Of a stretch of DNA of 64,000 nucleotides, positions 18,040 to 51,782 are shown one piece after another. Source of the stretch: Prevotella melaninogenica (GTDB taxonomy: Bacteria; Bacteroidota; Bacteroidia; Bacteroidales; Bacteroidaceae); contig NZ_CP072360.1 in assembly GCF_018128065.1 (NCBI RefSeq), forward strand, positions 1,182,501 to 1,246,500, given 5' to 3'. The notes beneath the pieces are model-generated. The model made no database searches. It saw only the letters and a list, made by a program, of their open reading frames with translations, and was not told the DNA's origin. The first letter of the stretch is position 1; every line of letters starts with the position of its first letter. The translations under genes and the position numbers were made by a program.

Positions 18040-18671
18040 TTTTTTCCTTGCCAGCGTTCCTTTGTTTTATGGCTTTATGACTGAGAAGAAGAAGACGGAT
18101 TAATCTACAAATATAAAGGAGTTTGAGCTAATCAAACTTCTACACACCTCCTGTTTATTCTTAGTATTACAACATTTTGCTCACAATTCATCCCCTGTCA
18201 TCCATATATCATAGTGAATTTAACCCTCCGCACATGTGGTGTTAACCCTCCGCACCATATGTGCTAAGCACCAGCACAACATGTGCAGAGTATCAGCACC
18301 GCAGCAAATGATGGTAAACATTCACGAATATCGTATGAAATAAGACCTTAAAACATCCTTTTCCGTTGGCTAAAGTGTAAAACGCTAAAACTAAACTGAA
18401 CAAATAACTTCTTTCTATGAATACAACAGATATTATTCTAATCGGGTCAAACAACCCACACGAATCGTTATAAAGCCAATATCATTCTTAGTTCATTTAT
18501 TTTTACATCAGTTGATTGTTTGATGAACGTATAGATACACTCTGTTAGGTATCTTGCAATCAAGGGATAGTAAATGTGCTGCATAGATAAATTGTTTTTG
18601 CTGTGTTGAGACTTAATCTGCAAGGCGTTTGCAAAGTGGAGTTTGCAAAAAGTGGTATTTTTTCTACTTAT
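18040..18671. other. Gene-free stretch upstream of nuo
   Basis: No supportable gene. It holds the 22-bp palindrome array at 18230-18308 and, at its right edge, the nuo promoter. Confidence 0.6.
18230..18308. repeat. 22-bp-period palindrome array A1 (4 units)
   Basis: Units start at exactly 18230, 18252, 18274 and 18296. Three 13-bp cores are GCACATGTGGTGT, GCACCATATGTGC and GCACAACATGTGC; the fourth keeps only the left arm. Spacers of 9 bp differ between units. Same design as arrays at 29380, 36506, 46375 and 51682. Confidence 0.8.
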
Positions 18672-18705
18672 TTTGCGTACGTTCTCAAATATTTTTGTAT
18701 CTTTG
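18672..18705 (+). promoter_or_regulatory. Promoter of the nuo operon
   Basis: TTTG (18672-18675), then 22 bp, then TATCTTTG (18698-18705). A leader of about 60 nt precedes nuoA. Confidence 0.75.
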
Positions 18706-18771
18706 CACACGTTTTAAAACAAGTATACTTAGAACAAGATTGAACAATTAAATTATAGCTATATAAAGTTT

Positions 18772-19122
18772 ATGTATTTCACACTTTTTGTTACCGTTTT
18801 GATAACGGCCGCATTCTTGGTAGTAGCAGCTTATGCTATTGCTAAGTGGATTGGTCCGCGTTCATATAATCCGGCGAAGGGTGAGCCTTATGAGTGTGGT
18901 ATCCCGACTTACGGAACCTCTTGGTTGCCAGTGCATATCGGTTACTACCTCTTTGCCATTCTTTTCTTGATGTTTGACGTGGAAACCGTATTCCTCTATC
19001 CATGGGCTGTTGTTGTAAAGACATTTGGACCACTCGCACTTGCTACGATTGGGTTCTTTATGCTGGTATTAGTATTTGGTCTTGCGTATGCTTGGCGGAA
19101 AGGAGCACTTGAATGGAAATAA
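18772..19122 (+). CDS. nuoA: NADH-quinone oxidoreductase-type subunit A
   Basis: Small membrane subunit of complex I, 116 residues with three membrane helices. Family segments are seen: [12 protein letters not shown] in the loop after helix 1 and [20 protein letters not shown] covering helix 2. This subunit helps join the peripheral arm to the membrane arm at the quinone site. It is the first gene of an eleven-subunit operon without nuoE, nuoF or nuoG. Its last 10 nt overlap the nuoB start. Confidence 0.97.
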
Positions 19123-20036
19123 GAAAGCCAAAAATCAAGTCTCTTCCATACGATGAATGGAAAGACAATGACACGCTTAGCAAGATGGCAAGCGAACTGA
19201 ACGATGGTGGGACTAACCTCGTTCTCGGAAACTTGGATCAGCTTATAAACTGGGGGCGTAGCAACTCTCTTTGGTCACTCACCTTCGCTACATCATGCTG
19301 TGGTATTGAGTTTATGTCTGTAGGTTGTGCACGTTACGACTTCTCTCGTTTTGGTTTTGAGGTGACGCGTAACTCTCCACGTCAGGCAGACTTAATTATG
19401 TGTGCGGGTACCATTACAAACAAGATGGCACCAGCTTTGAAGCGTCTTTATGATCAGATGGCTGAACCAAAGTATGTAATTGCTGTTGGTGGTTGTGCTA
19501 TCTCTGGTGGTCCGTTCAAGGATAGTTATCACGTTATGCGTGGTATTGACGAGATTATACCTGTAGATGTTTATATCCCAGGTTGTCCTCCACGTCCTGA
19601 AGCTATCATTTATGGTATGATGCAGCTTCAGCGTAAGGTTAAAGTTGAAAAATTCTTTGGTGGAACCAACCATAAGCAAACTACTGAGGAGCGTGAGTTG
19701 GGTAAGAGTAATGCTGAACTTATCTTCAGTGAGAAGTTAGGTATCAGTCCTGAAGAGATTAAAGAAAAGCGTGAAGCTGCTTGGGATGAATTAAAGAAAC
19801 CTACTCCAAAGCCAGCACGTCCTGTGGTGAAGCCAACTGCTGCTGCAAAGCCTGATAATGCTCCTGCTAAACCAGCAGAGACTACAACTTCTTCTTCTGA
19901 ACCTGTTGCACCAAAGAAAGATACGATTGTCGTTAACCAACCTGTAACAAAAGAAGATGTTGAGAAGTTGGGAAAGGAAATTGATCAGATTGATGCTGCA
20001 AGCAAGACTTCGGACGAGACTTCTACTAACAAATAA
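19113..20036 (+). CDS. nuoB: Complex I subunit B with long C-terminal tail
   Basis: Carries the terminal N2 iron-sulfur cluster that passes electrons to quinone. The Cys ligands are visible in [18 protein letters not shown] (about 68-82), GGCAISGG and [13 protein letters not shown]. The core ends near residue 190. The remaining part includes about 75 residues rich in Pro, Ala, Lys and Thr ([19 protein letters not shown] and onwards), making it 307 residues against about 160-220 in most bacteria. The tail looks disordered and its role is unknown. The ATG overlaps nuoA by 10 nt. Confidence 0.96.
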
Positions 20037-20054
20037 TATATAAGGTACGCGAGA

Positions 20055-21629
20055 ATGAAATTAGAAAATAAAGAATTCGGTTTTGATAGCTTTGCTTCAG
20101 AAATGGCAAAGCTAAAGAATGAGAAGCATTTCGATTACCTTGTAACTGTTGTCGGCGAAGACTTTGGTGCAGATGAAGGTCTCGGATGTATCTATATTCT
20201 TGAGAATACAAATACGCATGAACGTTGTTCAGTCAAGCAACTTGCAAAGAAAGTCGGAGAAGAATCTGTTATTCCTTCTGTCTACAACATTTGGGCTGAT
20301 GCTGACCTGTTAGAGCGTGAGGTCTATGACTTCTATGGTGTTAAGTTCCTCGGGCATCCTGATATGCGTCGTCTCTATTTGAGAAATGACTTTCAAGGTT
20401 ACCCACTCCGCAAGGATTATGACATGAATCCTGAAAAGAACATGTATACTACGGAGGATGATATAGAACTCAATACGACCTCAGAGTGGAATCTTAATAA
20501 TATTGGTGAACTTGTTGAAACACAGCATCCGTTGTTTACTGATGATAACTTCGTTGTGAATATTGGTCCTCAGCATCCATCTACCCATGGTGTGCTTCGT
20601 TTGCAGACTGTGCTGAATGGTGAAACTGTAACCAAGATTTATCCACACTTGGGTTATATCCACCGTGGTATTGAGAAGCTTTGTGAGCAGTTTACATATC
20701 CTCAGACCTTGGCATTGACTGACCGTATGAACTATCTGTCAGCAATGATGCATCGTCATGCACTCGTTGGTGTTATTGAGGAAGGTATGGGTATTGAATT
20801 GTCGGAACGCATCCTTTACATCCGTACAATTATGGATGAGTTGCAGCGTATTGACAATCACCTACTTTACACATCTTGTTGTGCTCAGGACTTAGGTGCT
20901 CTCACAGCCTTCCTCTATGGTATGCGTGACCGTGAACATGTACTGAACGTAATGGAGGAGACAACGGGTGGTCGTCTTATCCAGAACTATTATAGAATAG
21001 GTGGTTTGCAGGCAGACATTGATCCAAACTTCGTTTCAAATGTCAAGGAACTTTGCAAATACTTACGTCCAATGGTTCAGGAGTATTTGGATGTTTTTGG
21101 TAATAATGTTATTACCCGTAAGCGTTTCCGTGATGTAGGTGTTATGGATGAGCAGGATTGTATTAATTATGGTGTAACTGGTCCTGCTGGTCGTGCAAGC
21201 GGTTGGAAGAATGATGTGCGTAAGAACCATCCATACGCAATGTATGACAAGGTTGAGTTTGAGCAAATTACCTTGACACATGGTGACTCTATGGATCGTT
21301 ACTATTGTCATATTCAGGAAATTTATCAGAGTCTTAATATCATTGAGCAGCTCATTGATAATATCCCTGAAGGTGAATTCTATATTAAACAGAAACCAAT
21401 CATCAAGGTTCCTGAGGGACAGTGGTACTTCTCTGTTGAGGGTGCAAGTGGTGAGTTTGGTGCATATTTGGATTCACATGGAGACAAAACAGCATATCGT
21501 TTGAAGTTCCGTCCTATGGGTCTAACACTTGTTGGTGCTATGGATAAAATGTTGCGTGGTCAGAAGATTGCCGATTTGGTGACAACTGGTGCTGCACTCG
21601 ACTTTGTTATTCCTGATATTGACCGCTAA
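20055..21629 (+). CDS. nuoCD: Fused complex I subunits C and D
   Basis: Peripheral-arm subunit of 524 residues that forms the quinone pocket with NuoB. The N-terminal NuoC part (about 1-140) includes ADADLLEREVYDFYGVKFLG and GHPDMRRLYL. The NuoD part begins about residue 160 with VVNIGPQHPSTHGVLRLQTV. Further motifs are PHLGYIHRGIEKLCE, DRMNYLSAMMHRHA and, at the end, GAALDFVIPDIDR. C-D fusion occurs in several phyla, including enterobacteria. It sits 18 bp after nuoB in the same operon. Confidence 0.97.
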   Translation: MKLENKEFGFDSFASEMAKLKNEKHFDYLVTVVGEDFGADEGLGCIYILENTNTHERCSVKQLAKKVGEESVIPSVYNIWADADLLEREVYDFYGVKFLGHPDMRRLYLRNDFQGYPLRKDYDMNPEKNMYTTEDDIELNTTSEWNLNNIGELVETQHPLFTDDNFVVNIGPQHPSTHGVLRLQTVLNGETVTKIYPHLGYIHRGIEKLCEQFTYPQTLALTDRMNYLSAMMHRHALVGVIEEGMGIELSERILYIRTIMDELQRIDNHLLYTSCCAQDLGALTAFLYGMRDREHVLNVMEETTGGRLIQNYYRIGGLQADIDPNFVSNVKELCKYLRPMVQEYLDVFGNNVITRKRFRDVGVMDEQDCINYGVTGPAGRASGWKNDVRKNHPYAMYDKVEFEQITLTHGDSMDRYYCHIQEIYQSLNIIEQLIDNIPEGEFYIKQKPIIKVPEGQWYFSVEGASGEFGAYLDSHGDKTAYRLKFRPMGLTLVGAMDKMLRGQKIADLVTTGAALDFVIPDIDR

Positions 21630-21673
21630 CAAGGTTATCATTAAAGTAATCAATTAAGAATTAAAATCATACT

Positions 21674-22771
21674 ATGTTCGATTTTAGAATAGTAACAACA
21701 TGGTTCGATGAGTTGCTCCGCGTCACTTGTGGCTTGAGTAACTTTTGGACCGTTCTGATTGAGTGCGTTGCGGTGGGACTGGCAATACTTCTTGCTTATG
21801 CTCTGCTTGCAATCGTGCTTATCTTTATGGAACGTAAGGTCTGCGCCTACTTCCAGTGCCGTATCGGTCCTGTCAGAGTAGGATGGTGGGGTACCTTGCA
21901 GGTCTTTGCCGATGTGTTGAAGATGTTGATTAAGGAGATTTTTGCTGTTGATAAGGCAGACAAACTGCTTTATTATTTAGCTCCTTTCTTGGTAATCATT
22001 GCATCTGTCGGTACATTCTCTTTCCTTCCTTGGAATAAGGGAGCTAATATCTTAGACTTTAATGTGGGTATATTCCTTGTAACAGCTATTAGTTCAATTG
22101 GTGTTCTTGGAATTTTCCTTGCAGGTTGGGGTAGTAATAATAAGTATTCTGTCCTTTCTGCTATGCGTGGTGGCGTACAGATGATTTCCTATGAGTTGTC
22201 TTTGGGACTTTGCCTTATTTCTGCTGTTATCCTTACCGGTAAGATGCAGATTTCTGGTATTGTTGAAGCGCAAACAGGTCCTTGGCAATGGCTGATAATA
22301 CAAGGGCATATCCCTGCCATTTTGGCTTTCCTTGTGTTCTGTATTTCTGGTAATGCAGAGGCTAACCGTGGTCCATTTGACTTGGCAGAGGCTGAGAGTG
22401 AGTTGACTGCTGGTTACCATACAGAGTATAGCGGTATGGGGTTTGGTTTCTACTATTTGGCAGAGTATCTTAATCTTTTTGTTGTATCAGGAATTGCAAC
22501 TACTGTATTTTTAGGTGGTTGGGCTCCTTTGAACATTGGTTTAGATGGCTTTGATACTGTTATGAATTATATCCCTGGTCTCGTTTGGTTCCTTGGTAAA
22601 ACATTCGTAGTAGTATTCTTGCTGATGTGGATTAAGTGGACATTTCCACGTCTCCGTGTCGATCAGATTCTGAAATTAGAGTGGAAGTATCTTATGCCAC
22701 TATCATTGGTTATCCTCGTGTTGATGACCGTGTGTGTAGCAATGGGTTGGACATTCACTATTAATGGTTAA
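21674..22771 (+). CDS. nuoH: Complex I subunit H
   Basis: Membrane subunit of 365 residues with about eight helices, at the junction with the peripheral arm. Conserved segments are FMERKVCAYFQCRIGPVRVG, GTLQVFADVLKMLIKE and NRGPFDLAEAESELTAGYHT, with the acidic loop that couples quinone reduction to proton movement. It follows nuoCD by 44 bp and is followed by nuoI after 5 bp. Confidence 0.97.
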   Translation: MFDFRIVTTWFDELLRVTCGLSNFWTVLIECVAVGLAILLAYALLAIVLIFMERKVCAYFQCRIGPVRVGWWGTLQVFADVLKMLIKEIFAVDKADKLLYYLAPFLVIIASVGTFSFLPWNKGANILDFNVGIFLVTAISSIGVLGIFLAGWGSNNKYSVLSAMRGGVQMISYELSLGLCLISAVILTGKMQISGIVEAQTGPWQWLIIQGHIPAILAFLVFCISGNAEANRGPFDLAEAESELTAGYHTEYSGMGFGFYYLAEYLNLFVVSGIATTVFLGGWAPLNIGLDGFDTVMNYIPGLVWFLGKTFVVVFLLMWIKWTFPRLRVDQILKLEWKYLMPLSLVILVLMTVCVAMGWTFTING

Positions 22772-22776
22772 AGAGA

Positions 22777-23313
22777 ATGGAAGATAAAAAACAATCATAT
22801 TTTGGTGAGGTCGGGAGCGCAATCAAGACACTTGCTACAGGTATGAAGGTGACAATGAAGGAATACTTCACACCTAAATCTACCGAGCAGTATCCTGAGA
22901 ATCGCAAAACAACCCTTCACGTCGCCAAGCGTCACCGTGGCCGTTTGGTCTTTAAGCGTGACGAGGAAGGAAATCACAAGTGTACTTCTTGTACAATGTG
23001 TGAGAAGGCTTGTCCTAATGGTACTATCAAGATTCTTTCTGAGATGGTTACCAATCCAGAGACAGGTAAGAAAAAGAAGCAGCTCGTTGATTATGAGTAT
23101 GACTTAGGTGATTGCATGTTTTGTGAGTTATGTGTGAATGCCTGCAACTTCGATGCAATTGAGTTTACGAATGACTTCGAGAATTCTGTCTTCGATCGTT
23201 CTAAGTTAGTTCTTCACCTTGATAAAGAAGTCTATGAGGGCGGTTCACTGCCAGGACTTATTGAAGGTGGTGCTGACTGGAAGGTTGGAACATTCAATAC
23301 TAAAAAGAAATAA
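22777..23313 (+). CDS. nuoI: Complex I subunit I (two 4Fe-4S ferredoxin)
   Basis: Iron-sulfur subunit of 178 residues that relays electrons to NuoB. Two cluster motifs are visible: CTSCTMCEKACPNG near residue 68 and CMFCELCVNACNFDAI near 111. The second has Asn after the last Cys, where Pro is usual. An insert GKKKKQLVDYEYDLGD lies between them. With NuoEFG absent, this end of the complex must receive electrons from a donor other than a bound NADH module, possibly ferredoxin or flavodoxin; that is inference. Confidence 0.96.
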   Translation: MEDKKQSYFGEVGSAIKTLATGMKVTMKEYFTPKSTEQYPENRKTTLHVAKRHRGRLVFKRDEEGNHKCTSCTMCEKACPNGTIKILSEMVTNPETGKKKKQLVDYEYDLGDCMFCELCVNACNFDAIEFTNDFENSVFDRSKLVLHLDKEVYEGGSLPGLIEGGADWKVGTFNTKKK

Positions 23314-23325
23314 AGGTTTAGAGAT

Positions 23326-23865
23326 ATGGCAAGATTAATTATGTTTGCGGTACTCGCCGTTATTATATTGGCTTCGGCCGTATTCTGCGTATCGACGAAA
23401 CGTATCATGCGAGCTGCGACAGCATTGCTGTTCGTACTCTTTGGCGTTGCAGGTCTCTACTTCCTGCTTGATTACACATTCCTTGGTGCTACCCAAATCA
23501 GTATTTATGCTGGTGGTATCACAATGATGTATGTTTTTGCTATCCAATTGGTAAGTAAGCGTACATTGCAGGGACTTTCTGAGCGTTGGTTAGGAAAGCG
23601 TACTTTCCTTGCAGCCTTCATAGCTTTAGTTGGATTTGGAACAGTAGTACTCGTTATGTTGAAGAATGAAGTTCTGCGTCAAACTGTTGTGAACGGTGAT
23701 TCTTTATCAAATGAGGTTACAATGGAAACCATTGGTCATAACTTGATGACAGCTGATAAATATGGTTATGTTCTCCCATTCGAGTTCATCTCTGTATTCC
23801 TTTTGGCTTGTATTATCGGTGGCTTGGTTATTTTGAATAACAAAAAGAAGGAGGAAAGCAAATGA
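23326..23865 (+). CDS. nuoJ: Complex I subunit J
   Basis: Membrane subunit of 179 residues with about five helices. Segments such as AVFCVSTKRIMRAATALLFV and ISIYAGGITMMYVFAIQLV match NuoJ. The last four nucleotides (ATGA) overlap the nuoK start, so translation is coupled. Confidence 0.94.
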   Translation: MARLIMFAVLAVIILASAVFCVSTKRIMRAATALLFVLFGVAGLYFLLDYTFLGATQISIYAGGITMMYVFAIQLVSKRTLQGLSERWLGKRTFLAAFIALVGFGTVVLVMLKNEVLRQTVVNGDSLSNEVTMETIGHNLMTADKYGYVLPFEFISVFLLACIIGGLVILNNKKKEESK

Positions 23866-24170: not shown

Positions 24171-24182
24171 AGAGAAACAAAT

Positions 24183-26237: not shown

Positions 26238-26241
26238 AAAA

Positions 26242-27753: not shown

Positions 27754-27765
27754 TAAACTGGCGAA

Positions 27766-29275: not shown

Positions 29276-29379
29276 TTACCAAGTATTGCTATTTCTAAAT
29301 CAGTTCAGCATTACTTCGTCTTCTAACTTTACCTTGTAGTTCATTTTCTCCTCATATATAGTTTATGTGTACATGCTCC

Positions 29380-29436
29380 GCACATGTTGTGCTAACGCTC
29401 CGCACGTGTTGTGCTGTTGGTATGCACCAATGGTGC
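29380..29436. repeat. 22-bp-period palindrome array A2 (3 units)
   Basis: Units start at 29380, 29402 and 29424, exactly 22 bp apart. Cores are GCACATGTTGTGC, GCACGTGTTGTGC and GCACCAATGGTGC. It lies 175 bp past the nuoN stop. Confidence 0.8.
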
Positions 29437-29591: not shown

Positions 29592-30180
29592 TCACTTATC
29601 TCTGCGATTAAGCATCTGTTTCTTACATCTTGTAAGTCCTTCAACCTTGGTTTCTTCGTTGGCAAGCGTAGCTGGATTGACCACTGCCTTTGCTATGGCT
29701 CCCATACTGTTCGACAAGTCTATTGTTATGTCGCTGACCTTTAGTCGGTTTTCCTCTGGCAACTGCCTTAACACAGTTATCACGTTGGATGGCTTTGTCT
29801 CTTTTACAATGGTTATTATCGTATGCTTTTTCCCATGCCTATCCTTGTTGTGGAGTATCGTGTATACCTCATGGCAGAAAGACGTCTCGCCTATGCCCAA
29901 ATGCTCTCCCATGTTCTCGGGCAATAAAACTTGTTTGGAGGCGTACTCACGCTGCTCCCATGAACTGAAGTCGTTGATCACCTCCTTGTAATTTTTGGCA
30001 AACGTGCCATCATTTATCATGTATGTATGCAATAGTGACTTCGCTGTCACTGCTTCATTGTCCATCCGCTGCCTTAAAAAAGCGCAAGCTCTTTCGAGTA
30101 TTGCGTCTTCCTGAGGGCTATGCTTCCCAACGGTACGATGTAGTTATGGTTATCTTCCGTTAGCCATCTACGGAGGCATA
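29592..30180 (-). pseudogene. Decayed ISAon1-like DDE transposase fragment
   Basis: A 157-residue open frame (29592-30065) contains MINDGTFAKNYKEVINDFSS, PENMGEHLGIGETSF, NKDRHGKKHTIITIVKETKP and LKVSDITIDLSNSM. This resembles the N-terminal half of the DDE domain of ISAon1-type (ISL3-like) transposases of Bacteroidota. Upstream codons in the same frame read PQEDAILERACAFLRQR before a stop. The piece RRWLTEDNHNYIVPLGS continues upstream in a different frame, so there is at least one frameshift. The C-terminal half with the later catalytic residues is missing. Recognition is from memory of the family; a search would settle it. Confidence 0.65.
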
Positions 30181-30195
30181 CGTGTAAAAAAGAGA

Positions 30196-36209: not shown

Positions 36210-36395
36210 TAAGTGGGTTCTATTAATTAGCTTTGTCATATTCCGAAACTATCTTCGAGGGCAAATTGATAGTGAACAAAGAGGTTATATGAGCATAATG
36301 GCTGAATGAACTAACAATTTGAACAAAAGAGGGTTCAAAAAGTGACAAAATGCAACCATTGATATAACGGAGGTGGGAATTAATAGCCCCCCTTA
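36210..36395. mobile_element. MITE-like element, decayed copy (186 bp)
   Basis: The left end TAAGTGGGTTCTATTAATTA matches the intact copy at 5587 with one base missing. The following CTTTGTCATATT and TCTTCGAGGGCAAATTG also match. The right end TAATAGCCCCCCTTA is a degenerate terminal repeat. The inner stem is largely lost on the right side (CAATTTGAACAAAAGAG). Confidence 0.75.
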
Positions 36396-36505
36396 GTACT
36401 ATCTGTCAAACTTTACCCTTATAAATAGATTGCTTCTTAACTATATACCTATTAATGACAACGACCACCCTCTCTTCCCATCTTCTGCCAATGTGATGTA
36501 GCCCA

Positions 36506-36584
36506 TCACAGGTGGTGTTCACTGTCAACACCATTGGTGCGAAAGGCTAACACCAGTGGTGCGAAGGGTTAGCACCATACAAAC
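36506..36584. repeat. 22-bp-period palindrome array A3 (4 units)
   Basis: Units start at 36506, 36528, 36550 and 36572, exactly 22 bp apart. Cores include TCACAGGTGGTGT, ACACCATTGGTGC and ACACCAGTGGTGC; the last keeps the left arm only. It lies about 115 bp upstream of the promoter-like box of the Rep_3 gene. Confidence 0.8.
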
Positions 36585-36752: not shown

Positions 36753-37901
36753 ATGACAACAGATAAAACAGCTATTAGAAAGGTTACACGTAAGCGTGGA
36801 GCGAAGGCACAGAAGGCTCCACTAAAAAGCCGTACTATCTCGAACGATCTTATCCCAATAGAAGAAGAAACTTGGCTTCTTCAGCCAATTGCTGTGACGA
36901 TGATGCGCCATGATTATTCACTTATTCAGGTGAGAATTTTGGTATCTATTGTTGAGAGTCTGCAGTCTATTTTACATGGTATTTTGAACAACAAGCGAGG
37001 TTTTCAGCTTGACTTATTCCACACTGATGAGTTGGATGAGGACGGACGTATGCCAATTAAATTACCTTTTAAGGAATTAGGTGTTGACCCCAATCACTAT
37101 CCTCAATTGCGAAACTCACTGAAGATGCTTGCCTCTATTCCTGTAGAGATTCCTTATAAGACGGCTGAAGGAAGAAAATACACAAAGGCAACCAACCTTT
37201 GTGACGTATATATACCTGAAGACCGTTCTTATAACAAATATGCAATTCTAAAGCTTGATCATAGCGTAGCAGAGCGTCTTGTATCTTTAGACTTTGGTTA
37301 TCATCGATTGGGCAAACAGATTGTTTTTGCATGTAAGAATCGTTATACCCAACGTATCTATATGTTTATTGAGTCATGGGTAGATAAAGGTCGTACTGTT
37401 ATCAAGACATTCGAGTTCCGCAAGATGCTTCGTTTGGAAAACAACTACAAGAAATTCTCTGACTTCTGTCGTCGTGTTTTAGACCCAGCTATGCAAGAAT
37501 TAAGAGAGCTTGCTGAGAAAGGCTTCTGCGATTGTCATTTTGAATATGAGAAGAAGTATGACCGTGGTCAGCGTGGTGGTGAACCAGATGAGCTTATCTT
37601 CATCATACACCGCACAAAGGATAAGATGAACGTACAGCTGCAAGAAATGACACAGAACCAGCGTCGCCAGTTCCAGCAGTATCTTGTACAATACTTTGAT
37701 TTTACACCTGTTAATGCGCAAGCCATGGCTGAGCGTATTACAGCAGAGACCTATCAAGAGGCGGTACAGAAGCTGATGAGTCTGCGCGACCGGTTTACCA
37801 AGACTTTTGTTAAAGATAAAGCGGCCTACACATTTAAGAGCCTTGATGAGATGTTGAAATCAAAGGAAGTTCCCAACACTATTGTAGAGGAAGTGGAATA
37901 A
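36753..37901 (+). CDS. Chromosomal RepB/Rep_3-type replication initiator homologue
   Basis: A protein of about 382 residues from ATG 36753. The frame opens earlier, at 36600, but the upstream part contains a promoter box and reads as noncoding. The N-terminus is basic (RKVTRKRGAKAQKAPLKS). The core LQPIAVTMMRHDYSLIQVRI, LPFKELGVDPNHYPQLRNSL and YTQRIYMFIESWVDKGRTVI, KTFEFRKML, matches two winged-helix domains of Rep_3 initiators, which bind iterons in plasmids. No plasmid partners (mobilisation, partition) are nearby. Such chromosomal copies are common in Prevotella genomes in my knowledge, with unknown role. Followed after 114 bp by a lipoprotein gene. Confidence 0.8.
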   Translation: MTTDKTAIRKVTRKRGAKAQKAPLKSRTISNDLIPIEEETWLLQPIAVTMMRHDYSLIQVRILVSIVESLQSILHGILNNKRGFQLDLFHTDELDEDGRMPIKLPFKELGVDPNHYPQLRNSLKMLASIPVEIPYKTAEGRKYTKATNLCDVYIPEDRSYNKYAILKLDHSVAERLVSLDFGYHRLGKQIVFACKNRYTQRIYMFIESWVDKGRTVIKTFEFRKMLRLENNYKKFSDFCRRVLDPAMQELRELAEKGFCDCHFEYEKKYDRGQRGGEPDELIFIIHRTKDKMNVQLQEMTQNQRRQFQQYLVQYFDFTPVNAQAMAERITAETYQEAVQKLMSLRDRFTKTFVKDKAAYTFKSLDEMLKSKEVPNTIVEEVE

Positions 37902-43960: not shown

Positions 43961-46048
43961 TTACTGCCCCTTGGTAAGACCATCTCTCTCTTTCAACGCA
44001 TCAATAGTTGGCTCTCCGCCACGGAAACGCTTATAGAGTGTCATAGGATGTTCTGTTCCTCCACGTGAGAGAATATTATCTCTGAAACGCTGAGCAGTTG
44101 CCTGATTAAAGATTCCTTCTTTCTTGAATACGCTGAAAGCATCAGCATCAAGGACCTCAGCCCATTTATAACTATAATATCCAGCAGCGTAACCTCCTGC
44201 CATAATGTGAGAGAATTGCACAGTCATACATGTATCCGTACGCTGCTCTTCAATAATTGCTGGTGCCCACGCTTTCTTTTCAAATGGGATGATATCTTCT
44301 GTGAACTCGTTCTTCTGCGTGTAATAAGCCATGTCTAAAAGTCCGAAACTAACCTGTCGCAGACAAGCTGTTGCCGCACCGTAGTTACGACTCGCAATAA
44401 CCTTATCAATCAACTCATCTGGCATTGGCTCACCAGTCTGATAATGGAAAGCAAAGGTACGAAGGAAGTCTTTCTCAACCGCAAAGTTTTCCATAAATTG
44501 TGAAGGTAGCTCGACGAAGTCCCACCATACATTAGTTCCAGACAAACTCTCAAATCGTGTATTGGCAAAAATGCCATGAAGGGAATGTCCAAACTCATGT
44601 AAGAAAGTTTCAACCTCGCCTAATCTCAGTAATGCAGGCTTATCCTCCGTAGGCTTAGAGAAGTTCATCACAAGAGATACATGTGGGCGAACATTCGTAC
44701 CATCACGCTCAATCCACTGACCTTGGAACTCCGTCATCCATGCACCGTCACGCTTTCCTTTACGTGGGTGGAAGTCAACATAGAGTACAGCTAAATAACT
44801 ACCATCCTTATCGCAAACCTCATATGGTTTTACATCTGGATGATAAACTGGTATATCCTTGTTCTCTTTGAAGGTAATACCATAAAGACGTGTAGCCAAG
44901 CCAAAGACACCCTTGATAACATTGCCTAAGTCTAAGTATGGGCGAAGCATCTCGGGATCAAGGTCGTATTTCTTCTTCTTCAGCAACTGACTATAATAAG
45001 CTAAGTCCCAAGGCTCCATTTTGAAGCCTGCACTTTCTTCTTCCTTAGCAAATGCTTCTACTTCCTTACGTTCCTGAATAGCTGTTGGCTTATAAGCCTC
45101 TATAAGGTCATTGAGGAGTTTATACACATTCTCAACCTTCGTAGCCATGCGATGTTTCATCACATAGTCAGCAAAGGTATCATAACCAAGAAGTTGTGCC
45201 ATCTCTCTACGAAGATTTATCAGACGCTTACAAAGTTCAAGGTTATTTGTGTCGTTATCTTTTATACAAAGCGTATTGCGCGCCATATAGAGGTCTTTAC
45301 GCAGTTCACGCTGAGTACTATACATCATAAATGGACCATAGCTCGGGGCATCCAAAGTAAATACCCAGCCTTCTAATCCATGCTCTTTCGCAGCTTCATG
45401 TGCCGCTTCACGTGCTGAATTAGGAAGTCCATCAAGCTGTTGTTCATCAGTAATATGCAGAGTATAGGCTTTATTCTCATTCAATACATTCTGTGAAAAC
45501 TGCAGTGATAGCATTGAGGCTTCCTCAGTAAGCTTGCGCAAACGGTCCTTTCCTGCTTCATCCAACAACGCACCACTACGAACAAAGCCCTCATAACTTT
45601 TCTCTAACAAACAGTTTTCCTCTGGTGTCAACTCTCCATGATGTTCATAAACATGCTTGACACGCTCGAAAATCTTAGGATTTAAGCTAACATCATTACT
45701 ATGCTTCGTGAGAATAGGACTCATTTTCTGAGCCAAAGCATCCATTTCATCATTGGTCTCAGCACTTAGCATATTAAAGAACACACTCTCCACACGACTT
45801 AGAAGGTCATAGTAATGTTTACGCCCCTTAACCTCATCCTCTGGTATAATCGTATTTTCAAAGGTAGGTTCATCAGGGTTATTGATAATCTTCTCAATCT
45901 GCTCGTCCTCACGTCGAATACCTTCCATCATTGCTTCTTCATAATCAGCAAGTGTAATACGGTTGAAAGGTACTGTATTATGTGGTGTATCGTAAGGTCG
46001 GAAGAAAGGATTTACACGTTCTTTCTCCCCTGTTATACTGTCTGTCAT
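43961..46048 (-). CDS. dcp: Peptidyl-dipeptidase Dcp (M3 family)
   Basis: Zinc metallopeptidase of 695 residues that releases dipeptides from the C-terminus of peptides. The zinc site HEFGHSLHGIF is near residue 482, followed by the third ligand region (DFVELPSQFMENFA). A substrate-loop segment YSYKWAEVLDADAFSVFKKE is near the end. No signal peptide is seen, so it is probably cytosolic. The start MTDSITGEKER and total length match the family. Confidence 0.95.
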   Translation of the reverse strand: MTDSITGEKERVNPFFRPYDTPHNTVPFNRITLADYEEAMMEGIRREDEQIEKIINNPDEPTFENTIIPEDEVKGRKHYYDLLSRVESVFFNMLSAETNDEMDALAQKMSPILTKHSNDVSLNPKIFERVKHVYEHHGELTPEENCLLEKSYEGFVRSGALLDEAGKDRLRKLTEEASMLSLQFSQNVLNENKAYTLHITDEQQLDGLPNSAREAAHEAAKEHGLEGWVFTLDAPSYGPFMMYSTQRELRKDLYMARNTLCIKDNDTNNLELCKRLINLRREMAQLLGYDTFADYVMKHRMATKVENVYKLLNDLIEAYKPTAIQERKEVEAFAKEEESAGFKMEPWDLAYYSQLLKKKKYDLDPEMLRPYLDLGNVIKGVFGLATRLYGITFKENKDIPVYHPDVKPYEVCDKDGSYLAVLYVDFHPRKGKRDGAWMTEFQGQWIERDGTNVRPHVSLVMNFSKPTEDKPALLRLGEVETFLHEFGHSLHGIFANTRFESLSGTNVWWDFVELPSQFMENFAVEKDFLRTFAFHYQTGEPMPDELIDKVIASRNYGAATACLRQVSFGLLDMAYYTQKNEFTEDIIPFEKKAWAPAIIEEQRTDTCMTVQFSHIMAGGYAAGYYSYKWAEVLDADAFSVFKKEGIFNQATAQRFRDNILSRGGTEHPMTLYKRFRGGEPTIDALKERDGLTKGQ

Positions 46049-46483
46049 GTCTTTTCTTGCTTTCTCTTAATTTAATTTACAAAGGTAACTCAAAAAAAGG
46101 AAAATACTATATAAAGAGGTGGAATTTAACGCAATTTTGTTTCTATATTACGAGTAAAGCAATAAGTATCTGCTAATAGGAGTAAGTTTTGTTCAGACAC
46201 CACTTATGTTTAATGTTAGAAAAAATGATATTATAGTAAGAAATATTCGAGATCGAAAAATCTTTAACAACAAACTCTCCATGTAAAAACGTCTTATTAT
46301 ACCATTCAAACGAGTGGGAATCCTTTGATAGTACTATTCTTTTTTACCAATAAGTAGCCTGTTTCTCAGCAATAAATCAGATGGTGCTTACCAACAGCAC
46401 CAGTGGTGTTTACGACCAGCACCAATTGTGCTTACCAACAGCACTACATGTGATAGGTAACAACACAAAGATAAAAGTTAGTT
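46049..46483. other. Gene-free stretch upstream of dcp
   Basis: No supportable gene. A TACCTTTG box on the minus strand (46080-46087) may serve dcp. Array A4 occupies the right part. Confidence 0.5.
46375..46453. repeat. 22-bp-period palindrome array A4 (4 units)
   Basis: Units start at 46375 (right arm only, ATGGTGC), 46397, 46419 and 46441, all 22 bp apart. Cores are GCACCAGTGGTGT, GCACCAATTGTGC and GCACTACATGTGA. It begins 31 bp past the Crp-like gene stop. Confidence 0.8.
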
Positions 46484-47149
46484 CTATCCTCTTAAAGTCT
46501 CCAACTGTGGGACTATAATAATTCCCCTACTCATTGTCAATAGTCCTTCATTTTGTAAGGCATTGAGCATACGAGAGACATTAAGACGACTTTGATGTAG
46601 CTCTTTAGCAAGCTCTTCCATCCTTATTCTCAACACCTTACACCCAGCTTGTGTAAGGCAACGAAGACGCAGAAAGTTAACAAACTGCTGACGAATATCA
46701 CTGGATTGTTGTCTCCATGGGATACGACTCATTCTCTGTGCCTGCATAGAAATACTGTTGAGAAGATTAAGACGGAAAATAAGGTAAGAATCAAGTAATC
46801 GTAAAACTTCTGCTTTATCCAACGAAAGCAAACTACAATCAGTATGCGCTATAAAATCCTTTGTATAACGTTGCTGTAATCCAAAGAGGTGTTCAGGCTG
46901 AATAACAGCAGGAGCAGAAAGTTCTTCTTCTATACGATAACGATAGTTATCAGCATAGCTAACGACACGAAGCGTACCACTCATCAGAAAGAAGAGTTGT
47001 GTACATTTATCATCCGTGCTTACAAGTGGCCTGTCAACTGCCAATTTATGAAAGCCAAACTTTGTTTGCTCCACAATATCAGACAATTCATCCGTACTTA
47101 TACCGATAAAAAGTGGTAGTTCAATGAGTTTATCGTAGAGCTGAAGCAT
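46484..47149 (-). CDS. Crp/Fnr-family transcription regulator
   Basis: A protein of 221 residues. Residues about 1-130 form a cyclic-nucleotide-binding-type beta barrel (FFLMSGTLRVVSYADNYRYR, YTKDFIAHTDCSLLSLDKAE). There is no Cys cluster of the Fnr type. A helix then leads to a winged-helix domain, RMEELAKELHQSRLNVSRML and NALQNEGLLTMSRGIIIV. It probably regulates metabolic or stress genes; ligand unknown. Immediately upstream is the terminator of apbE, so it has its own promoter. Array A4 lies just downstream. Confidence 0.9.
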   Translation of the reverse strand: MLQLYDKLIELPLFIGISTDELSDIVEQTKFGFHKLAVDRPLVSTDDKCTQLFFLMSGTLRVVSYADNYRYRIEEELSAPAVIQPEHLFGLQQRYTKDFIAHTDCSLLSLDKAEVLRLLDSYLIFRLNLLNSISMQAQRMSRIPWRQQSSDIRQQFVNFLRLRCLTQAGCKVLRIRMEELAKELHQSRLNVSRMLNALQNEGLLTMSRGIIIVPQLETLRG

Positions 47150-47168
47150 AACATTAATAAGAAATTAT

Positions 47169-47198
47169 ATAGCCGCTTTCTGCTTAGAAAGCGGCTAT
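47169..47198 (-). terminator. Hairpin terminator of apbE
   Basis: ATAGCCGCTTTCT (47169-47181) pairs perfectly with AGAAAGCGGCTAT (47186-47198) around GCTT. It lies between the apbE stop and the Crp-like gene start; the trailing T-tract is weak. Confidence 0.75.
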
Positions 47199-47203
47199 CT
47201 TCA

Positions 47204-48220
47204 TTATTCTACAAACTTTCCTTTCATAGAATGGCTATACCATACCTGCAAATTACCTTTTGCATTTGAATAAATGAAATAAGCCATCAACTCTGGGTGA
47301 CGCTCAAGCAATTTGCGTGATTTTTCAATTCCCATCACCATAAAGGCAGTAGCATAAGCATCAGCAGTAGCACAGTTTTTTGCTAAAACAGTAGCCGAAA
47401 GAAGCGAATGTTGTACAGGATAACCCGTTTTAGGATCAATCGTGTGTGCATATTTCTTTCCTCCTTTATAATAGAAGTTACGATAGTTTCCACTCGTAGC
47501 CATAGCCTTGTCAGTGACATTCAATACGGTTTGAATCTCTTGATTAACCTTCGCACTATCATCTGTTGGTTTTGTAACTCCAATCTTCCATGGCAGGCGT
47601 TGCTCACTATTACCCATCGTTACAATCTCACCACCTATCTCCACCATAAAGTTTTTAATACCATTACGACGTAAGAAACGAGCTACTATGTCTGATCCAT
47701 AACCTTTAGCAATAGCAGAACAATCAAGCATTACACCTTTATTCGTCTTCTGAATGGTGTTGCTAACAAGTTTCACCTTATTATATCCAACTATTTGATG
47801 CAAACTATCAATCGCCTGCTTAGAAGGGTGTTGACCCGTCTTAAAGCCAAAGCCCCACATATTTACCATAGGAGCAACTGTAATATCAAAAGCCCCGTCT
47901 GTCTCTTTTGAAATTGACTCGGCGAGTGTAAAGACTTCTCTGAACATTTCATTTACCTTGACAGGCTTGTTCTGATTAATCTGTGATATCAGTGAATTGG
48001 TTTCAAAAGTTGAAAAGGTTTGGTTTACCTTCTTCAATTCTGCTTCTATCTGCGGTTGAAGGTCTTCATCGCTTTGGTAGGTTATATTATAAACTGTACC
48101 AAAGATAAAGCCCTTGTTATGCTGATAAGGCATTGAGTGCTGACAACGAACAATAGCTATTGAACCGATAATCAGCACAAGTAGAAAAGGTACTTGCCAA
48201 TATATTTTTTTCTTATTCAT
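47204..48220 (-). CDS. apbE: FAD:protein FMN transferase
   Basis: Attaches FMN covalently to threonine residues of flavoproteins such as Nqr and Rnf subunits on the outer face of the membrane. The 338 residues begin with a signal or membrane segment (QVPFLLVLIIGSIAIVRC). Family segments are IFGTVYNITYQSDED, GAFDITVAPMVNMWGFG, LDCSAIAKGYGSDIVARFL, VEIGGEIVTMG and KKYAHTIDPKTGYPVQHSLL. The Cys after IVR could be a lipid site but the Arg is unusual. No target protein gene is in the window. Confidence 0.95.
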   Translation of the reverse strand: MNKKKIYWQVPFLLVLIIGSIAIVRCQHSMPYQHNKGFIFGTVYNITYQSDEDLQPQIEAELKKVNQTFSTFETNSLISQINQNKPVKVNEMFREVFTLAESISKETDGAFDITVAPMVNMWGFGFKTGQHPSKQAIDSLHQIVGYNKVKLVSNTIQKTNKGVMLDCSAIAKGYGSDIVARFLRRNGIKNFMVEIGGEIVTMGNSEQRLPWKIGVTKPTDDSAKVNQEIQTVLNVTDKAMATSGNYRNFYYKGGKKYAHTIDPKTGYPVQHSLLSATVLAKNCATADAYATAFMVMGIEKSRKLLERHPELMAYFIYSNAKGNLQVWYSHSMKGKFVE

Positions 48221-48358
48221 ATAATGTTTATTAATTAAGAGTTAAAGAGTAAATTAGAATTAGAAGAAAAAAGATGAGAATTAAGAGTTAATTCTTTTCT
48301 TAGCATAACGCTTAAAGCATATACAACTATTTCCTACTTATTATAAACAACTTACTCA

Positions 48359-49051
48359 TTATAATTCAAATAATACATTAAAAGTCGCACCAAGTCGTGA
48401 TGAACCTCCACGACCATAGCCTGGGACGTACCATGCTTCGCCTATATCGCCCATCTTATGAGCAAGGCGTAGTTTATAACGAACGCTCCAACCCATACGA
48501 ATAGGACCAAAAATCTTTGCATCAACACTGCCAACAAGCTCTGCCCAGAGCTGACTTCCCTTATTACCAAGAGCACCATAAGATGATTGTGTTCCCCAAA
48601 TAGGGTCAGCAATACCTGGACTAAGAACATCATACTTGAACGAGGTATACCCCACTCTACCGCCCACTAAGAAGCGATAGTCATCATGTTTATTCTTTAG
48701 CATATTGAAATCACAGCCCACACGCCCATAGGGTGCACTGGTCTTAAAGTTCGTCCCAGTAGTCTCGTCAGTCTTATCTGCCTGCCCAATGCCCGCCTCG
48801 ATGATAGGAAAGTATCTATCCTTAATATTTACACGAAGCAAAGCCTCATACTGGCCGTATGAAGCAAGCCAGCGCATACTTGGTCCTACAAGGTCAACAC
48901 CAACTGCTACTCCCCTAAAGAATGGAATAGTATCTTCCTTAACCTTTGGGACAGACGGTCGGTGCTGTGCTTTAGCTGTTGTTGGAAACAGCAGAAGCAA
49001 AGCATTAAGGATTAGTAAAACTGATAAGTATATGCTCTTTCGTACCATCAT
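48359..49051 (-). CDS. DUF6048 family exported protein
   Basis: A protein of about 230 residues with a signal peptide (SVLLILNALLLLFPTTAKAQ). The mature part, GVAVGVDLVGPSMRWLASYG, KDRYFPIIEAGIGQADKTDE and RFLVGGRVGYTSFKYDV, looks like an outer-membrane beta barrel and ends in FNVLFEL. It matches the DUF6048 family as I know it. Start ATG 49051 lies within the last 47 nt of the upstream DUF6452 gene, so the two are coupled. Function unknown. Confidence 0.85.
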   Translation of the reverse strand: MMVRKSIYLSVLLILNALLLLFPTTAKAQHRPSVPKVKEDTIPFFRGVAVGVDLVGPSMRWLASYGQYEALLRVNIKDRYFPIIEAGIGQADKTDETTGTNFKTSAPYGRVGCDFNMLKNKHDDYRFLVGGRVGYTSFKYDVLSPGIADPIWGTQSSYGALGNKGSQLWAELVGSVDAKIFGPIRMGWSVRYKLRLAHKMGDIGEAWYVPGYGRGGSSRLGATFNVLFEL

Positions 49052-49508
49052 AATCAACGTTAGGATTACTGATTTCTATCTGACTTATACGCGTACCTTT
49101 TGCCGAAACAGCTGTAAGGGTATGGAAGAATACTGGAGGACAATCAACACTCTCAAAGTGACTTATATTCGTCTTCGATATTGTTACTGTATCTATCGTT
49201 GTCACACCTGCCTTACTCTTGAATACAAAGCGTAATTTATCGCTATCACCACTATAACTCATCGGTAAACTAAACTTCGTCGTATTGACCTGTTTGTTCA
49301 ATAGAATGGTGTCGGTCCTGTTCTTACGTATAGCTGAGATAGTAAGTGTATCATGCAAAGTATCACCCTGAACAACATAATTAGCCCGAACACCATTGGT
49401 TACAGGACAGTCTATGTCAGAACAAGAACTCAGCCAACTTAGTCCTCCAAAAAGAAGTACAAAGGTACTGATACTGCTTACTATATGTCTGATTTTTCTA
49501 TAGTTCAT
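49005..49508 (-). CDS. DUF6452 family lipoprotein
   Basis: A protein of 167 residues. The signal ends FGGLSWLSSCSDID, with the lipobox Cys near residue 29. The mature chain contains CPVTNGVRANYVV and FESVDCPPVFFHTLTAVSA, with two Cys that may pair. It is probably a periplasm-facing or surface lipoprotein. It overlaps the DUF6048 start by 47 nt, and the pair recurs together in Bacteroidota in my knowledge. Function unknown. Confidence 0.85.
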   Translation of the reverse strand: MNYRKIRHIVSSISTFVLLFGGLSWLSSCSDIDCPVTNGVRANYVVQGDTLHDTLTISAIRKNRTDTILLNKQVNTTKFSLPMSYSGDSDKLRFVFKSKAGVTTIDTVTISKTNISHFESVDCPPVFFHTLTAVSAKGTRISQIEISNPNVDYDGTKEHILISFTNP

Positions 49509-49584
49509 TATCTTTTATTGATATCTATATAAAGAGCAAACTGTACTAACCTCTCATCAGTTACCACTTCAGAAAGCTGTCACA

Positions 49585-50538
49585 TTATATTTCTTTCTCA
49601 ATCTGATAGTCATTCCGCTTTGGATTACTACGACTGATAAGGTCGCCTATAAAACCGGCAAGGAAGAGCTGTGTACCTAAAATCATCGCAACGAGTGCAA
49701 TGAAGAACGAAGCATGATTTGAAAGCAAATCTCCATAAACGCCATTCACAAGCATTACCACCTTCTCAACAATCAACCAAAGAAATGCAATAAAACCAAT
49801 GAAGAACATAAACGATCCCATCAGACCAAAGACATGCATTGGCTTCTTACCAAAGTTAGTAAGGAACCAGAGTGTCAATAAGTCCAGATAACCATTAAAG
49901 AAACGATTAATACCAAACTTTGATTTGCCATACTTACGTGCCTGATGGTGTACAACCTTCTCGCCGATACGTGCAAATCCAGCCTCTTTAGCAAGATAAG
50001 GGATATAACGGTGCATCTCTCCATACACCTCAATATTCTTTACAACATCACGACGATAACCCTTTAAACCACAGTTAAAGTCGTGCAAATTATGCACACC
50101 GCTAATCTTACGTGCCGTAGCATTGAAAAGCTTTGTAGGTATAGTCTTTGTCAATGGGTCATAACGCTTCTGCTTATAGCCACTGACAAGGTCGTATTTC
50201 TCCTCCATTATCATACGATAAAGCTCGGGTATCTCATCAGGAGAATCCTGTAAATCAGCATCCATCGTTATGACAACATCCCCTTTTGCAGCATTAAAAC
50301 CACAATAGAGTGCTGGACTCTTACCGTAGTTACGGCGGAATTTTATGGCATGAACGTGTTCTGCATCCTTATGATGCAATTCCTCAATAACATCCCAGCT
50401 CCTGTCTTTAGAGCCGTCATTGATAAATATTATTTCATACGTGAAACCGTTAGCGTTCATTACGCGCTGAATCCACGCGTATAATTCTGGTAGACTTTCT
50501 TCCTCATTATAAAGAGGAATAATTACTGATATATCCAT
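49585..50538 (-). CDS. Family 2 glycosyltransferase (DPM1/GtrB-like)
   Basis: Inner-membrane enzyme of 317 residues that probably transfers a sugar to a polyprenyl phosphate carrier. The GT-A fold starts VIIPLYNEEESLPELYAWIQ, with IIFINDGSKDRSW and the metal-binding DxD within VVITMDADLQDSPDEIPEL. The acceptor region RKYGKSKFGINRFFNGYLDL is typical. Two C-terminal membrane helices follow (FIGFIAFLWLIVEKVV and FFIALVAMILGTQLFLAGF). It lies 52 bp past DUF4199 on the same strand. Confidence 0.94.
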   Translation of the reverse strand: MDISVIIPLYNEEESLPELYAWIQRVMNANGFTYEIIFINDGSKDRSWDVIEELHHKDAEHVHAIKFRRNYGKSPALYCGFNAAKGDVVITMDADLQDSPDEIPELYRMIMEEKYDLVSGYKQKRYDPLTKTIPTKLFNATARKISGVHNLHDFNCGLKGYRRDVVKNIEVYGEMHRYIPYLAKEAGFARIGEKVVHHQARKYGKSKFGINRFFNGYLDLLTLWFLTNFGKKPMHVFGLMGSFMFFIGFIAFLWLIVEKVVMLVNGVYGDLLSNHASFFIALVAMILGTQLFLAGFIGDLISRSNPKRNDYQIEKEI

Positions 50539-50590
50539 ATTCTGAATTAGGAGTTTTCTATTAGATATGAGGAGTTAATTAAATTCTATC

Positions 50591-51130
50591 TTATGATGGT
50601 TGATTCTTTACTTTTTTAGACATAATTGCTGCAATAAATAGCGAGAAAAAACCACCCAATATCACTGCATATACAAAACTGCTGGCAGCCAAAGAGAATG
50701 GTTGGAAAGCTTCAGACAATGCCGTAATAAACTGTTTGTATGGAATACCTATAGCCGCAAGAAGACTTTTACCTTCGTTACTGGAATAGATATTAGTAAC
50801 CATCATGAGTAATTTCCCTTTGTCGAGATACTCCATATAAAGCCACTGCAACAAACTGAAGATAATTGCAGAATTAAAGAAAACACGTAAACAATAGAAC
50901 AGAGCACGACGAAAAGAGATAACTCCATTGCGTCCCTCCTCACGAAAAACCTTCAGTCGATAAGCTACAAAGAAAGGTGTCGAGAGAGAGAGTAAGAAAC
51001 TAAATTGTGCCAAAACTGGTAGAACAGTCATACCCAATAAGCACGCAAAACTTGCCACCCAAATGATAGCAAGATAAATACCATCATAACGAGCATAAGC
51101 TGTCAGTTGTTTAAAATCTTCATTAATCAT
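50591..51130 (-). CDS. DUF4199 family membrane protein
   Basis: A protein of 179 residues with four hydrophobic helices (LAIIWVASFACLLGMTVLPV, FSFLLSLSTPFFVAYRLKVF, YCLRVFFNSAIIFSLLQWLY, FVYAVILGGFFSLFIAAIMS). A charged insert follows helix 3. The architecture matches DUF4199, which commonly precedes a GT2 gene in Bacteroidota, as here. Possibly an assembly partner of the transferase; no direct evidence. A TACTTTTG box at 51135-51142 on the minus strand may be its promoter. Confidence 0.88.
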   Translation of the reverse strand: MINEDFKQLTAYARYDGIYLAIIWVASFACLLGMTVLPVLAQFSFLLSLSTPFFVAYRLKVFREEGRNGVISFRRALFYCLRVFFNSAIIFSLLQWLYMEYLDKGKLLMMVTNIYSSNEGKSLLAAIGIPYKQFITALSEAFQPFSLAASSFVYAVILGGFFSLFIAAIMSKKVKNQPS

Positions 51131-51222
51131 GCTACAAAAGTACTGATTATTTATTATAAATAATGTGGCAGTCTACCAAATTTATATTTTTTTGTTAAAA
51201 ACAGAAAAAGTTCTGTATCCTT

Positions 51223-51254
51223 TTTGCCAGTATTAAATAAAATCTGTATCTTTG
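51223..51254 (+). promoter_or_regulatory. Promoter of SRP RNA and tRNA-Thr
   Basis: TTTG (51223-51226), then exactly 20 bp, then TATCTTTG (51247-51254). Confidence 0.85.
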
Positions 51255-51288
51255 CACCCGCTTTAACAGCAATGAAAAAGCAGAAGAC

Positions 51289-51384
51289 GGACAAGTCTCT
51301 TACGACCAGCTCCCTTTGAATCCCCCAGGACGGGAACGTAGCAAGGGCAGAAGGTTGTAGCGGTGCGATAGGAATCGCTTGTCC
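51289..51384 (+). ncRNA. ffs: Signal recognition particle RNA (small bacterial type)
   Basis: RNA that joins Ffh to deliver nascent membrane proteins to FtsY. The ends GGACAAG (51289-51295) and CTTGTCC (51378-51384) pair. The apical domain carries the conserved symmetric and asymmetric loops, CCCCAGGACGGGAACGTAGC followed by AAGGGCAGAAGG, the signature of domain IV. About 96 nt, the 4.5S type without an Alu domain. It starts about 35 nt past a strong promoter, so a 5' trimming step is likely, and tRNA-Thr starts 6 nt downstream. Confidence 0.9.
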
Positions 51385-51389
51385 ACCCC

Positions 51390-51463
51390 GCCTCTTTAGC
51401 TCAGTTGGCCAGAGCACGTGATTTGTAATCTCGGGGTCGTTGGTTCGAATCCGACAAGAGGCT
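51390..51463 (+). tRNA. tRNA-Thr (TGT)
   Basis: A 74-nt cloverleaf. The acceptor stem GCCTCTT pairs with AAGAGGC, the D-arm is TAGCTCAGTTGGCCAGAGCA, the anticodon loop TTTGTAA gives TGT, and the T-loop is GGTTCGAATCC. CCA is not encoded. The anticodon stem has one T-T mismatch. No promoter lies between it and the SRP RNA. Confidence 0.95.
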
Positions 51464-51494
51464 CAAATTAATAGAATGACTAAGAACAGAGAAG

Positions 51495-51524
51495 AAGGTA
51501 TGTCGTGAGGCATACCTTTTTTTG
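51495..51524 (+). terminator. Terminator of the SRP RNA-tRNA-Thr unit
   Basis: AAGGTATG (51495-51502) pairs with CATACCTT (51511-51518) around TCGTGAGG and is followed by TTTTTG. Confidence 0.88.
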
Positions 51525-51681
51525 TATGCTCGGCATGAGCATTGCCTAACGCGTGGACCCCGAAACCCATGATTTGGGATCGCTGTAAATTAATAGAACT
51601 CTCTTTAATTGTTGTCTGGTAAATATCTTCCACACAAGTTATTCATTAGTAACTTATTACTATGGAGCTCACATGCCATGT

Positions 51682-51782
51682 TTTATCAATGTGCTGTTGC
51701 CCAACACGCATGGTGTCAGTGGTGAACACCATTGGTGCTATTGGTAAACACGCATGGTGCTAAGAGCTAAACACATTGCAAC
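51682..51782. repeat. 22-bp-period palindrome array A5 (5 units, outer ones degenerate)
   Basis: Full units start at 51704, 51726 and 51748, exactly 22 bp apart: ACACGCATGGTGT, ACACCATTGGTGC and ACACGCATGGTGC. Half units fit the same register at 51682 (right arm ATGTGC) and 51770 (left arm). It is located between the tRNA-Thr terminator and the end of the acetylesterase gene. Confidence 0.8.

Follow-up and report, generated by a model that had tools for sequence, protein, structure and literature searches.

What maintains five short rows of palindromes, each with the same exact 22-bp period, in gene-free DNA far apart from one another? The question is raised by a 64,000-nucleotide stretch of the Prevotella melaninogenica genome (assembly GCF_018128065.1, contig NZ_CP072360.1, positions 1,182,501 to 1,246,500), referred to here as the window. 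A sequence-only reading had described the arrays as rows of GCAC-n5-GTGC palindromes selected for cooperative binding of a dimeric protein. We have followed these arrays through the window, the complete genome and the genus, and what emerges is a real set of phased DNA sites, dispersed widely and under selection. The arrays are phased and intergenic, the CAC/GTG letters of their units are constrained, whole units are gained and lost, and the places of the arrays are conserved between sister species. The explanation that we favour, at slightly better than even odds (roughly 0.55), is that they are the cores of an old, dispersed repeat similar to PINSR of Prevotella intermedia, kept as sites for a cooperatively binding dimeric protein, perhaps with a role on the scale of the chromosome.

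Phasing, abundance and conservation

All five arrays contain three full units of the form CAC-n5-GTG with starts exactly 22 bp apart, flanked by half or degenerate units (Table 1). The exact period is therefore confirmed; the "three to five" palindromes described per array are obtained only when the half and degenerate end units are counted. The four conserved outer bases per arm (GCAC/GTGC) fit 6 of the 15 units, and the robust core is CAC-n5-GTG. GCAC-n5-GTGC itself occurs six times in the window, compared to 0.68 expected, and all six are within arrays. An inner gap of 5 is the sole value between 0 and 12 that yields 22-bp pairs in the window, and 22 and 44 are the only periods between 11 and 59 that yield unit pairs there. 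The mean site is approximately TYAR-CAC-CANTG-GTG-YTRA, so that at a 22-bp spacing the symmetry centres alternate every 11 bp. The window arrays had no match in Rfam. The earlier description is to be corrected for array 1, which lies within a repeated miniature inverted-repeat transposable element (MITE).

The complete genome of this strain (G000; 3.34 Mb in two contigs) has 226 matches to a two-unit pattern and the reversed control has none. Arrays of two to five units number 22 in 400 kb of G000 and 28 in 400 kb of a second genome, G146, a density of about one array per 14-18 kb in these two stretches. Three Markov shuffles of each stretch gave 0, 0 and 0 arrays for G000 and 0, 0 and 1 for G146. 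These counts, together with the unique gap and period, reject a chance tandem repeat, and the non-random periodicity proposed earlier stands. Among the 249 genomes in our sample of the genus, 75 have at least one two-unit match and seven have at least nine: G132 (274), G146 (267), G000 (226), G214 (50), G124 (42), G011 (18) and G137 (9), although the matches listed for G137 are mostly plain tandem repeat. A motif-free scan for periods in intergenic DNA, made on sampled stretches of each genome, found 22 to be the best period at 43 of 57 loci in G000, at 49 of 74 and 30 of 44 loci in two stretches of G146, and at 12 of 16 loci in G084.

The sister species G146 and G132 share about 92-97% identity over long aligned blocks. 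An array is found at the syntenic place in G132 for 26 of the 28 arrays of G146 C1:1-400000; one is absent, and for one the script gave no syntenic pair, although this array could be aligned by eye. Between G146 and G132, changed sites amount to 5 of 432 in the CAC/GTG core, 31 of 360 in the inner five bases, 44 of 599 in the links between units, 42 of 264 in partial units, 148 of 1152 at the edges and 771 of 6583 in the flanks. Unit number differs in 11 of the 26 pairs. In the reciprocal comparison, 22 of 32 G132 arrays were usable (seven were without synteny and three had large indels), with changes at 6 of 384 core sites, 24 of 320 inner sites, 39 of 550 link sites, 31 of 242 sites in partial units and 498 of 4145 outside. 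Spans were equal in 12 of these 22 arrays; of the other ten, the difference was an exact multiple of 22 in six and one base off such a multiple in one. Selecting units on their core score within a single species could, by our reasoning, at most about halve the core rate; the observed gap is about four- to tenfold. The arrays are thus selected, with strong constraint on CAC/GTG.

The more distant comparison of G000 with G146 left 16 of the 22 arrays of the G000 stretch not judgeable against the G146 DNA compared. For two arrays (window arrays 3 and 4) both flanking genes were adjacent in G146, and an array was present in both cases; the DNA around these orthologous arrays hardly aligns. Four G000 arrays with one flanking gene found in G146 had no array there.

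The arrays as probable cores of a dispersed repeat

The spacers had been described as unrelated between units. They are not: the 11-bp links share a weak and often polar consensus, TTAA...CCG or CGG...TTAA. Adjacent links agree in polarity (r 0.42, n=90, with 0 of 2000 permutations as high), and where polarity switches along an array it does so 12 times in one direction and twice in the other. When the 56 bases outside each array were sorted with a two-class model, two end types emerged. Both types are present in 45 of 67 arrays, compared to about 32 of 67 by arithmetic if the ends were independent. Because of the link polarity and the paired unlike end classes, many arrays have the appearance of diverged copies of a single polar element, and the picture of independent rows of sites has to be modified to one in which many rows resemble old copies of a dispersed element.

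Covariation was assessed on 173 full units and 146 links, at 13 variable pair positions compared with permuted letters. Watson-Crick pairing had no significant excess at 12 of the 13 positions and was below the permuted level at seven (p 0.05 or less). The proposal of selection for phased dimeric-protein sites is partly supported, by the core constraint, the mostly absent covariation of the arms and the indels that are often whole 22-bp units.

Under the explanation that we favour, duplication or transposition in the past would have dispersed the repeat, in the case of one subfamily inside an ISL3-like MITE. Its core would be a row of two to five sites at exactly 22 bp, which puts a symmetry centre on the same helix face at each 11-bp step. 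A dimeric protein would bind several units cooperatively. Instead of switching promoters, the bound protein would act at chromosome scale, by folding the nucleoid or by spacing or segregating the two chromosomes. Cooperative dimer binding is the best-supported mechanism for these predicted sites. Some avoidance of close neighbours is seen: summed over three stretches, four neighbouring arrays are less than 4 kb apart, compared to 13.1 in simulations (1, 2 and 1 per stretch versus 3.6, 5.3 and 4.2; p 0.076, 0.062 and 0.039). A spacing rule is only hinted at.

Several observations count against this explanation. The binding protein is a predicted one, and the suggested chromosome-scale role is drawn from placement. 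Gap variation between arrays is not significantly low in any of the three stretches (p 0.19, 0.075 and 0.96), and in the third it exceeds the simulation. One inner pair covaries (0.457 versus 0.370 permuted, p 0.007), and in a count made without the permutation test, pairing was in excess at distance 6 in units and at distances 9 and 10 in links. Most of the 249 genomes lack the window motif, so the system is not general, and in the period scan 22 was best at only 3 of 20 loci in G195, 1 of 15 in G163 and 1 of 3 in G024. Finally, polarity in the links and pairing of end classes are in keeping with a repeat propagated as a whole.

Table 1. Features in the window; the first full unit listed for each array marks its first full CAC.
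Feature	Position	Strand	Description
Array 1	18231..18285	.	Full units 18231, 18253, 18275; degenerate unit 18297; inside MITE
Array 2	29367..29435	.	Half unit (GTG 29367); full units 29381, 29403, 29425; downstream of nuoN
Array 3	36493..36575	.	Half unit (GTG 36493); full units 36507, 36529, 36551; right half unit CAC 36573; upstream of Rep_3-like gene
Array 4	46384..46452	.	Degenerate unit (GTG 46384); full units 46398, 46420, 46442; peptidase M3 gene and Crp-like gene on either side
Array 5	51691..51759	.	Half unit (GTG 51691); full units 51705, 51727, 51749
ISL3-like MITE	18010..18477	+	468 bp; holds array 1; 24-bp inverted ends GGTTCTATAACGAATCGTGTGGGT
MITE target duplications	18002-18009 and 18478-18485		8 bp, AT-rich, one mismatch
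Rep_3-type initiator-like gene	36753..37901	+	382 aa; start set from relatives; weak candidate binder
Possible decayed copy	60731..60755	.	CAACCGATGTG, then CAC 22 bp on; like end class A (by eye)

The last entry had been proposed as a weaker two-unit relative at 60730-60764; it has only a GTG half unit plus one CAC. The only open reading frame (ORF) of at least 80 aa that overlaps array 2 is an apparently spurious one of 100 aa with a TTG start. An ISAon1/ISL3-type transposase fragment adjoins the same array (window 29595-30065, minus strand). To the left of array 3, 138 bp at about 36212-36349 are 78% identical to DNA to the right of another array (G000 C2, about 1059.7-1060.0 kb).

Mobile elements, initiators and regulators as alternatives

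The alternative that survives best, although we consider it unlikely, is a self-serving repeat, in which the arrays would be sites for the element's own mobilization without a host role, and the conserved cores would be either recently copied or required for movement. It draws on the array subfamily in the MITE, on the paired end classes and link polarity, and on the precedent of BrickBuilt of Porphyromonas gingivalis, a MITE built on tandem units (PMC4596501). BrickBuilt resembles the arrays in that its tandem units are intergenic, measure about two helical turns and belong to a dispersed element; it differs in its 23-nt units of unrelated sequence, without spacers, in its 19 copies and in its IS5-family-like ends (PMC4596501). 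Compared by eye with the 23-nt unit as given there, the units found here do not match in period or letters.

Among the window arrays, the terminal inverted repeats and target duplications that define a MITE were found at array 1 only. The GG-starting ends and 8-bp duplications of this element are in keeping with the ISL3 family. At least 24 copies, the window copy included, match over 300 bp or more with sharp common ends, the others being 83-94% identical; this count is based on the 30 loci listed out of 41 array matches in the genome. The genome has 42 matches to the MITE ends with two or fewer mismatches. A search of G000 by these ends for an autonomous element gave no clear partner. One wide end pair, C1:38089-40738, was rejected as a MITE copy split by an insertion (G000:C1:37901-40900), and the ORFs carried by that insertion we take to be IS66-like.

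Arrays 2-5 have no such element and no strong inverted repeat within 700 bp. MITE flanks are common to 6 of the 22 arrays in the 400-kb G000 stretch, where another pair has 138 bp in common at 78%; among the 28 G146 arrays, flank sharing came to one 33-bp hit. The sequence-only reading had named copies of one recent element as the outcome that would overturn it, and this is true of the MITE subfamily alone. Against the self-serving repeat, most other arrays have neither inverted ends nor flanks in common, and 26 of 28 places are kept between the sister species, where the cores are constrained in place and the links vary freely.

Less probable still are dispersed iterons: the chromosomal Rep_3-type initiator whose gene adjoins array 3 would bind the arrays, which would titrate it or couple the replication of one chromosome to that of the other. 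Rep_3 proteins have tandem iterons of about 22 bp as binding sites, and the ORF at 36600-37901 matches PF01051 (6.1e-7) and PF21205 (1.4e-9); array 3 directly precedes its GTG-started extension, which is apparently spurious. Rep_3 plasmid iterons are like the arrays in their tandem sites near 22 bp, one array adjoining such a gene. Unlike the palindromic arrays dispersed over the chromosomes, such iterons are direct repeats gathered in one cluster at an origin. An array lies upstream of the Rep_3-type gene in G000, G146 and G132. Relatives of this gene occur in 26 of the 249 genomes, and at 9 of the 23 loci scanned the best period is 22 (upstream in G000, G146, G132, G084, G017, G195, G185 and G050; downstream in G108), against a background, in five stretches, of 3-22% of genes with such an array within 1.2 kb upstream. 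This excess is no more than suggestive. The eight upstream cases reduce to about four independent lineages, three and two of the cases being from close relatives and that of G185 belonging to a cluster of direct 14-mers, which weakens the iteron explanation. In addition, G124, with its 42 matches, has no array at its Rep_3 gene, no Rep_3 gene was found in the array-bearing genomes G214, G011 and G032 (G214 is 80% and G011 86% complete), and most of the 26 Rep_3-bearing genomes lack these arrays.

G185 is a two-contig Prevotella genome. Its cluster (G185:C2:155700-158355) has 20 matches, 16 on one strand, to the non-palindromic direct 14-mer CTCCTATTTTGTCG and starts some 0.6 kb upstream of the Rep_3-type gene. 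In appearance the cluster resembles plasmid-type iterons, and the second chromosome may have its origin here; for two-chromosome Prevotella the PINSR report gives this origin as unknown (PMC4755523). A like cluster of 7 is found in G195 (C2:805970-807723), 85 kb from the Rep_3 gene of that genome. G075 carries Rep_3-type relatives in pieces with stops (C1:641920-643014 and C3:3149-4270) and has 0 array matches.

We regard as very improbable that the arrays are operators of a large regulon, with a transcription factor controlling the genes beside them. Clustered palindromic sites are usual for regulators, and arrays 2-5 neighbour nuoN, rep3, crp-like and tRNA/SRP genes; among seven NuoN control loci none had a whole array, with an array at the edge of one (G124). 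Genes were called here as longest ORFs rather than by a trained gene finder, and an array was scored as inside when an ORF contained all of it. On this basis 49 of 50 arrays are not inside a called ORF, the exception falling in a 91-codon ORF of a MITE copy. For the non-MITE arrays of three stretches, 65 of 67 could be placed, 31 between tandem, 19 between convergent and 15 between divergent genes, and placement tracks intergenic length, with no gap-type bias at p 0.05. This distribution, with its 19 convergent gaps, argues against operators, as do the median distances of 283 bp to starts versus 212 bp to stops. Lineages also have few array-flanking genes in common: two loci are orthologous, one further pair is 71% identical, and three similarities are weak.

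REP/BIME and the STAR elements of Staphylococcus aureus are, like the arrays, numerous lineage-specific intergenic repeats. A hairpin structure and an accompanying Y1 transposase are typical of REPs, whereas neither was found in association with the arrays. Although units and links are palindromic and intergenic, RNA hairpins or REP/BIME moved by a Y1 transposase are scarcely credible and were set aside, given the pairing and Rfam results above, the one covarying inner pair notwithstanding, and the absence of Y1_Tnp (PF01797) from six of the seven array-bearing genomes tested, G000 having one match in two pieces.

The same geometry in other genomes

The 22-bp design is found elsewhere in the genus with other letters. 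G214 has arrays built of CACAAAGTGTGCAAGGCATCTG and like units, and G032 has 25 matches of a different unit on nine contigs. In G084 a repeat of about 185 bp contains four 22-bp units, with 15 aligned copies in 100 kb. A four-unit pattern matched 105 stretches in public genomes, of which 80 were listed and 60 of these taken further. Among the stretches listed, the ones from Prevotella histicola, UBA3294, RUG11392 and RUG030 have varied units and appear by eye to follow the same design, and many in Nocardioides, Treponema and further phyla look by eye like plain 22-bp tandem repeats that fit the pattern by chance. A three-unit pattern gave 62 stretches in viral contigs, all of them raw pattern matches only.

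PINSR is described as a 188-bp intergenic, lineage-specific repeat of P. intermedia with unknown function (PMC4755523). It has 177-184 copies per genome on both chromosomes (177 = 120 + 57), a density of 57 per 868 kb and, as stated there, no terminal inverted repeats; about three quarters of its places are kept between two strains (PMC4755523). PINSR and the window family are alike in high copy number, intergenic position and kept places, here between sister species rather than strains, and apparently unlike in their letters, the G084 repeat being taken as a stand-in for PINSR. The G084 repeat is close to PINSR in length (about 185 bp with four 22-bp units versus 188 bp) and is denser, with weakly inverted ends, and the 22-bp units go unmentioned in the accessible description of PINSR. 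From its length and design, the G084 repeat would appear to be PINSR itself. The window family is probably a relative of PINSR in design, and the same geometry with other letters is probably present in some other Prevotella, PINSR included. PINSR and BrickBuilt were among the matches listed from the open-access literature, and none of those matches described 22-bp palindrome arrays for P. melaninogenica-type genomes.

A wider proposal, to which we give little credence, is that several Prevotella lineages have chromosome-wide, satellite-like phased arrays in which the 22-bp geometry stays constant and the letters change in step with the cognate protein, organizing or coordinating two chromosomes. 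If the arrays are indeed the cores of a PINSR-like repeat kept as protein sites, then a repeat type until now noted as a lineage marker would consist of rows of phased protein sites under selection. The arrays would then serve as bait for a chromosome-scale DNA-binding protein in two-chromosome Prevotella, and would provide a case in which the letters of a site change between lineages while its geometry stays.

Other periods occur in some of these genomes. One stretch of G163 (C1:2120001-2220000) has 18-bp arrays of GACCAGTCGGACTTGTC-like units and 23-bp arrays of AAACATATATGTTT and AAAGTTCAACTTT palindromes, which are possibly another form of the same idea. In G089 a CACGTG-based repeat of about 11-bp period is found at C5:3582-3713 and 97090-97122.

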